A DNA stretch of 64,000 nt, taken from positions 620,001 through 684,000 of the forward strand of contig NC_011295.1 in the NCBI RefSeq assembly GCF_000020945.1. Reading direction: 5' to 3'. The position numbers were made by a program, and so were the translations under genes. This document shows, piece by piece, positions 62,081-63,099 of the stretch; within the stretch, counting starts at the first letter, position 1; every line of letters begins with the position of its first letter. A model generated the notes under the pieces. It made no database searches. It was not told the DNA's origin and saw only the letters and a list, made by a program, of their open reading frames with translations. The stretch comes from Coprothermobacter proteolyticus DSM 5265. GTDB lineage: Bacteria; Coprothermobacterota; Coprothermobacteria; Coprothermobacterales; Coprothermobacteraceae.

Positions 62081-62166
62081 GGGGGCGTGGCGGAATGGCA
62101 GACGCAGCGGACTTAAAATCCGCTGAGCAAGCGCTCGTGTGGGTTCGACTCCCACCGCCCCCACCA
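62081..62166 (+). tRNA. tRNA-Leu (anticodon UAA)
   Basis: 86 bases, class II with a long variable arm (TGAGCAAGCGCTCG region). The acceptor stem pairs GGGGGCG (62081-62087) with CGCCCCC (62156-62162), discriminator A and encoded CCA at 62164-62166. The anticodon loop CTTAAAA sits on a GCGGA/TCCGC stem; the T-loop reads GTTCGACTC. The AIR-synthase-like ATG starts on the next base. Confidence 0.97.
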
Positions 62167-63099
62167 ATGGAAGGCAAAGTACCAGTTTCTTATATAGGCG
62201 ATTTGGTAGAGCGGTTCTACGGAAAACGCCGTCAAGAAGTGTTGATCGATGCTAGCAATCTCACTGACAGTGCAGTGGTAGATTTAGATGCTCCCATGGT
62301 GGTTAGTACTGACCCAATAACTGGTGCTGATAACCATGTGGTTACACAGCTAGCAGTCCACATAAATGCAAATGATGTAAGGGTTGCTGGCGGAGAGCCA
62401 GTAGCTTTTTTGGCAGTTCTTCTTTTGCCCACCAATTTTCCACAAAAAGACATAGAAGGCATGTTTGAGCATCTTCATGAAGGGTTGGATTACGAGAATG
62501 CTCAGTTAGTGGGAGGCCACAGCGAGTTTACATCAGCTGTGACGAAACCTGTAGTAGTTGGCACTATGTTTGGTAAAAGGATTAGAGTACTTGGTAAGGA
62601 CCTTGTAAGACCTGGGCAGCACGTGTTTTTCGCAGGAACATTGGGCCGGGAGGCTATGATGATTTTAAGGGGTTCCTACGGAGACGACATACTCAAGGTT
62701 TCTGTCAAGCCCATCATGGATGTCGCCTTAAATGTTCCCTCATTGGTCTTTGCCCATGATCTGACTGAGGGAGGGCTAGTGGCTGGTCTCTGGGAGCTGA
62801 CACGGGGAACGTCCCTTGGCATTGAGGCTTCTTTTCCTGAGAGTTATCTGGACCAAGAACTGATTCAGCTTTCCCGCCGGTTCCAGTTTAACCCCTACAA
62901 AATAATTTCTTCGGGTTCTGTGCTGCTGGTCTGCGAGAATGAACGTGAAATGAGAGAAAAACTCGAAGAAGAACATCTGCCTTTTGTCTATCTGGGGCAG
63001 TTACATAAAAACTCTGTTACGTCTTTGAATGGTGTGCCACTGGGGGATCTTGATCCTGAAGGCCCCGATGAGCTCTGGACTTTGCAGAAGAGAGTATAG
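62167..63099 (+). CDS. AIR-synthase-related protein (HypE/SelD-like superfamily)
   Basis: 310 residues with the two-domain AIR synthase fold: STDPITGADNHV, NANDVRVAGGEPVAF and FAHDLTEGGLVAGLWEL are ATP-binding hallmarks, and PYKIISSGSVLLV ends the second domain. HypE is the closest named relative, but the C-terminal PRIC-type Cys of HypE is missing (it ends LQKRV), so the reaction is unknown. The ATG is directly next to the tRNA-Leu CCA end, leaving no room for a Shine-Dalgarno. Family-typical N-terminus supports this start. Confidence 0.82.
   Translation: MEGKVPVSYIGDLVERFYGKRRQEVLIDASNLTDSAVVDLDAPMVVSTDPITGADNHVVTQLAVHINANDVRVAGGEPVAFLAVLLLPTNFPQKDIEGMFEHLHEGLDYENAQLVGGHSEFTSAVTKPVVVGTMFGKRIRVLGKDLVRPGQHVFFAGTLGREAMMILRGSYGDDILKVSVKPIMDVALNVPSLVFAHDLTEGGLVAGLWELTRGTSLGIEASFPESYLDQELIQLSRRFQFNPYKIISSGSVLLVCENEREMREKLEEEHLPFVYLGQLHKNSVTSLNGVPLGDLDPEGPDELWTLQKRV

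Follow-up and report, generated by a model that had tools for sequence, protein, structure and literature searches.

Can the maturation of a transfer RNA provide a bacterial message with its 5′ end? The question is raised by a locus of Coprothermobacter proteolyticus in which a tRNA-Leu(UAA) gene with an encoded CCA runs directly into the ATG of a protein-coding gene. We analyzed a stretch of 64,000 nucleotides around this junction, referred to here as the window, which is part of a single-contig genome of 1,424,912 bases (G000). Here, we describe the locus, its conservation among relatives, the way in which the downstream gene could be translated, and the alternatives that have to be weighed.

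A tRNA gene abutting a start codon

The junction between tRNA-Leu(UAA) and the downstream gene reads ...CCGCCCCCACCA, followed immediately by ATGGAAGGC... (Table 1). The initial annotation had described this abutment, and both the sequence and ARAGORN confirm it. It is the sole Leu-UAA gene found in the tRNA survey of G000. The same annotation held that there is one promoter, ahead of the tRNA, and that a Shine-Dalgarno (SD) sequence has no space. Both points are borne out: the spacer is 0 nt, and the promoter scan finds a sigma-70-type promoter 13 bases before the tRNA, its TATAAT being invariant across the four genomes compared below. From there to the ATG, the scan of the window shows nothing resembling a further promoter or a terminator. 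By geometry, the tRNA promoter would also serve the protein-coding gene, which, because there is no spacer, must be transcribed through the tRNA. An internal promoter with its own leader, named earlier as a finding that would refute the processing proposal, was sought throughout the gene; the scan found no promoter-like site there, and we reject this candidate.

Table 1. Features of the tRNA-Leu(UAA) locus and of the other gene starts discussed in the text.
Feature	Location	Strand	Basis or remark
lexA, divergent neighbor of tRNA-Leu(UAA)	61428..62006	-	TIGR00498, E=1e-53
Sigma-70-type promoter TTTACA-17 bp-TATAAT of tRNA-Leu(UAA)	62039..62067	+	11/12 consensus matches
tRNA-Leu(UAA), CCA encoded	62081..62166	+	ARAGORN; anticodon taa
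ATG abutting CCA	62167..62169	+	Sequence; candidate 5′ end of processed leaderless mRNA
AIR-synthase/HypE-like protein, 310 aa	62167..63099	+	Pfam PF00586, E=3.6e-14; PF02769, E=1e-6
rpsT (S20)	63580..63846	+	PF01649
Gene MLERTFISTL... after tRNA-Met	L053 (G000), L217 (G001), L236 (G004)		TATA(A/C)T box, no SD
DDAH-like gene after tRNA-Arg, alphaproteobacterium	L121:6871-7641		ATG directly after CCA
TonB-C protein gene after tRNA-Glu	L090:2724-3359		ATG directly after CCA

Judged by its profile matches, the product of the downstream gene belongs to the AIR-synthase superfamily and is no more than HypE-like: it scores 53.9 bits with the HypE model TIGR02124, against a curated cut-off of 251.6. 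The nearest solved structures in the PDB are HypE proteins. An AlphaFold model based on four sequences is poor in the N-terminal half, with a mean pLDDT of 61.5. A scan of genome contigs found no close relatives of the protein outside the Coprothermobacter family.

Conservation of the junction and the start codon in use

Bare juxtaposition of CCA and ATG is expected by chance. CCA is encoded in every tRNA surveyed (47 loci in G000, 47 in G001, and 44 in G004). For 47 tRNAs, a frequency of 1/64 gives ~0.7 cases per genome; one match in G004 (L056) is nothing more than the start of a terminator hairpin. The Leu(UAA) couple is, on comparison with relatives, more than chance, because a conserved 310-codon gene starts there and the arrangement recurs. 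The initial annotation had proposed looking for the same arrangement in relatives, and it is found in three further genomes, G003, G001, and G004, whose HypE-like proteins are 82, 62, and 53% identical to that of G000; G004 belongs to a different genus, making two genera in all. The spacers between tRNA and ATG are 0 nt in G000, 0 nt in G003, 2 nt (AT) in G001, and 0 nt in G004. A fifth genome, G002, was set aside from this comparison, as the contig seems to break off within the tRNA gene.

Two other positions for the start codon were considered. The ORF lister reports a 340-aa version of the protein that begins upstream of the tRNA and reads through it. In G001, however, the 2-nt spacer places the gene in a different frame with respect to the tRNA, meaning that initiation inside the tRNA is not conserved, and we reject a tRNA-encoded N-terminal extension. 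Alternatively, translation could begin at a later codon served by a separate SD or promoter, leaving the ATG at 62167 unused. All that we found in favor of such a start is a weak AGG preceding the TTG of codon 13, in G000 only. In a codon alignment of the four genomes, ATG 62167 is the only shared in-frame start-type codon before codon 45, which sits in the conserved VVSTDPITGA core. Moreover, the N-terminal peptide predicted from this ATG (MEGKVPVSYIGDLVER) includes a conserved MxGKxPxS motif, and third-position substitutions dominate from codon 2 onward, accounting for 8 of the 12 in codons 2–15 between G000 and G003. The codon alignment thus largely refutes a downstream start, which we regard as highly improbable; a later start codon with an SD, the second finding named earlier as adverse, was looked for and did not turn up.

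Initiation without a Shine-Dalgarno sequence

Bacterial operons in which a tRNA and a protein-coding gene share a promoter are known, thrT-tufB being an example. The Coprothermobacter family has couples of this kind, including tRNA-Thr(GGU)-tuf and tRNA-Ser(UGA)-rplU, which resemble the Leu(UAA) couple in their shared promoter but differ from it in having an SD-bearing spacer. Besides Leu(UAA), we compared ten tRNA-to-gene couples in G000, G001, and G004. Nine (Ala-GGC, Gln-UUG, Pro-CGG, Pro-GGG, Ser-UGA to rplU, Thr-GGU to tuf, Trp, Val-GAC, and Leu-UAG) have an SD match of 5–8 nt within a spacer of 18–60 nt in every genome where the couple occurs. All nine are seen in G000 and G001, and eight also in G004; the Gln-UUG couple could be compared in two genomes only, the tRNA-Gln of G004 being followed by a terminator instead of a gene. 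The tenth, after tRNA-Met, lacks an SD and has a TATA(A/C)T box 4–10 nt before the ATG in all three genomes; its message is likely leaderless, made from a promoter of its own. Leu(UAA) is the only compared couple with neither an SD, for which it has no room, nor its own TATA(A/C)T box. Since the nine sister couples have an SD, its absence is specific to the Leu(UAA) couple. A survey of all window genes with loosely defined starts is too permissive to inform (SD matches at 47 of 68 starts versus 36 of 68 random positions), and the SD argument therefore rests on the orthologous couples.

Several G000 tRNA genes (within L024–L053 and L058–L073), e.g., Ser-GCU, Arg-ACG, and Leu-CAA, have a run of T directly after CCA, as if the stems of these tRNAs might act as a terminator hairpin.

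The divergent neighbor of tRNA-Leu(UAA) is a candidate for leaderless initiation. In lexA, a TATACT lies 8 nt before the ATG of MKELTARQK (7 nt in G004) and is conserved in the four genomes, which places the transcription start at about the ATG. The lexA mRNA is therefore probably leaderless, and the upstream ATG at 62024 chosen by the ORF caller is likely wrong. Across the window, a −10-like box lies 3–11 nt upstream of 8 of 118 predicted-gene ATGs, a modest excess over all ATGs (56 of 2253). A further leaderless candidate, on the minus strand at 60765, encodes a 153-aa membrane-like protein; it lacks an SD, and a TATAAT precedes its ATG by 6 nt. Promoters of this type, at lexA and elsewhere, make leaderless initiation plausible for the Coprothermobacter lineage.

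Maturation of the tRNA and the fate of the message

The geometry, the promoter, the conservation, the start codon, and the absence of an SD are the basis on which we read the Leu(UAA)–HypE-like unit as a co-transcript whose tRNA 3′ maturation would yield a leaderless mRNA, a reading that we hold with somewhat better than even confidence. The tRNA promoter would drive both the tRNA and the gene as a single unit, with RNase P trimming the 5′ side of the tRNA. We infer that 3′ maturation involves an endonuclease cut at the encoded CCA or no more than one or two nucleotides away, that the released mRNA, beginning with AUG (AU-AUG in G001), is translated as a leaderless message, and that the intact precursor, its AUG abutting the acceptor stem, is a poor message. 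In the predicted RNA fold, pairing of the acceptor stem extends as far as the CCA that adjoins the AUG; with the stem closed next to the start codon, the uncut RNA should be poorly translated. The initial annotation went further, proposing that processing could switch on translation. This is unsupported: nothing in the sequence suggests that tRNA-Leu(UAA) processing is regulated, and because every molecule of the only tRNA-Leu(UAA) found must mature, processing would be constitutive as far as can be told from the sequence.

Cuts of the kind required have been described elsewhere. Enzymes known to cleave at an encoded CCA or immediately behind it are Thermotoga tRNase Z and, for certain tRNAs or conditions, E. 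coli RNase E (PMC7479834). In P. acnes, which lacks an obvious tRNase Z, an endonuclease cuts a few nucleotides downstream of the encoded CCA or inside it (PMC3848588), and in S. coelicolor tRNA 3′ cuts also fall between the Cs of CCA (PMC4681348). A Thermotoga-type tRNase Z, described as maturing the 3′ end in one step after CCA (Minagawa 2004, as cited in PMC7479834), would give exactly the cut needed at the Leu(UAA) junction. However, the Thermotoga-type model (TIGR02650) has no match in G000, and none of nine genomes of the phylum, G000 included, exceeds the cut-off of the bacterial-type RNase Z model (TIGR02651). The only TIGR02651 match in the Coprothermobacter family is weak, to a frame of 556–567 residues that in G000 is RNase J. 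The metallo-beta-lactamase-fold proteins of G000 matching PF12706 comprise this RNase J, a CPSF-like beta-CASP nuclease, two Lactamase_B_3 proteins, and two others that, judged by eye, are ComEC-like and flavodiiron-type. A profile search of three genomes did not find RNase E/G. Nor did we find a recognizable RNase PH; the only matches to its profile are in a frame of 700–705 residues, which is hit twice, in the manner of PNPase, and which we take to be a PNPase-like exonuclease. These searches covered RNase Z of both bacterial types, PF12706 proteins, RNase E/G, and RNase PH, and absence from a profile search is not proof of absence.

The failure to recognize RNase Z in nine genomes and to find RNase E/G in three counts against a cut at the CCA. 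Together with the PNPase-like exonuclease, it favors the main rival to leaderless release, in which the two products are exclusive fates of the transcript. The usual alternative route of tRNA maturation, a downstream cut followed by trimming by 3′ exonucleases, would here place the cut inside the HypE-like gene; maturation would destroy the message, and the protein would be a low-level leak translated from uncut precursor. Such a leak could suffice for a maturation-type enzyme. This scheme would, however, require the 30S subunit to initiate without an SD at an AUG lying against a highly stable tRNA structure, and no lineage has gained an SD or a spacer, although nine sister couples have them. 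We consider it unlikely. It is possible, and we put this forward more tentatively than the reading of the locus itself and with less than even confidence, that in bacteria lacking RNase Z an endonuclease cut exactly after CCA makes a leaderless mRNA and ties production of a metabolic protein one-to-one to the maturation of an essential tRNA.

The history of the locus bears on whether the abutment has any such role. In G005, from the sister family, tRNA-Leu(UAA) is followed directly by rpsT, with an SD (L074), whereas the order in G004 is tRNA-Leu, HypE-like gene, rpsT; in the window, a ferredoxin gene additionally lies between the HypE-like gene and rpsT. This order suggests that the HypE-like gene entered between tRNA-Leu(UAA) and rpsT in the family's ancestor, a direction for which one outgroup is thin evidence. 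On either side of rpsT in the window lie two small 4Fe-4S ferredoxin genes (63251–63433 and 63904–64000) whose close similarity suggests local duplication. The apparent insertion is consistent with the abutment being an accident of gene placement, with weak or leaderless initiation good enough and no regulatory role. The 2-nt spacer tolerated in G001 points the same way, as does the stability of the sister-couple spacers, which drift by just 0–9 nt between genomes among the SD-bearing couples; for this reason, we do not accept the exactness of the abutment alone as proof of selection. Accident nevertheless differs from leaderless release in selective meaning only, not in mechanism, and retention of the arrangement over 47% protein divergence with no gain of an SD still needs some working mode of initiation. 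We regard an accident as quite unlikely, a little more so than exclusive fates.

Leaderless release after tRNA cleavage would have parallels in known systems. MazF also creates messages with a 5′ AUG by endonuclease cleavage (PMC3848588), but it is a stress toxin, whereas the cleavage proposed here is tRNA maturation. The closer parallel is the tRNA punctuation model of animal mitochondria (Ojala, Montoya and Attardi 1981, as cited in PMC5203842). As there, a tRNA abuts a start codon, and its excision would leave a leaderless mRNA: in four genomes, the start codon lies 0–2 nt from the mature tRNA 3′ end, and in G000 the scan places the only promoter-like site before the tRNA. The Coprothermobacter case differs in involving one couple on a bacterial chromosome rather than a whole genome, in a tRNA that encodes its CCA, which mitochondrial tRNA genes do not, and in that processing is here a prediction from geometry, with RNase Z not recognized. 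Our literature search found no case of a bacterial tRNA-punctuated mRNA, returning mitochondrial papers, archaeal co-transcripts, and 3′-end maps for P. acnes and Streptomyces. A sample of 80 loci across GTDB in which ATG directly follows CCA consists mostly of short chance frames, but at least two real genes in unrelated bacteria start at the CCA (Table 1); a TadA gene after tRNA-Ser (L113) is a possible third, but it has a later in-frame ATG. On this sample, the arrangement recurs, rarely, in bacteria.

Our best reading, by analogy, is that a small family of thermophilic bacteria has, in the Leu(UAA) couple, its own counterpart of mitochondrial tRNA punctuation. If the proposed cut is real, this would be a conserved bacterial case of an arrangement long described for mitochondria, with tRNA and protein output coupled within each individual RNA molecule. 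One 5′ end would then provide a clean, natural assay for the nuclease that matures CCA-encoded tRNAs in bacteria where RNase Z and RNase E/G are not recognized.
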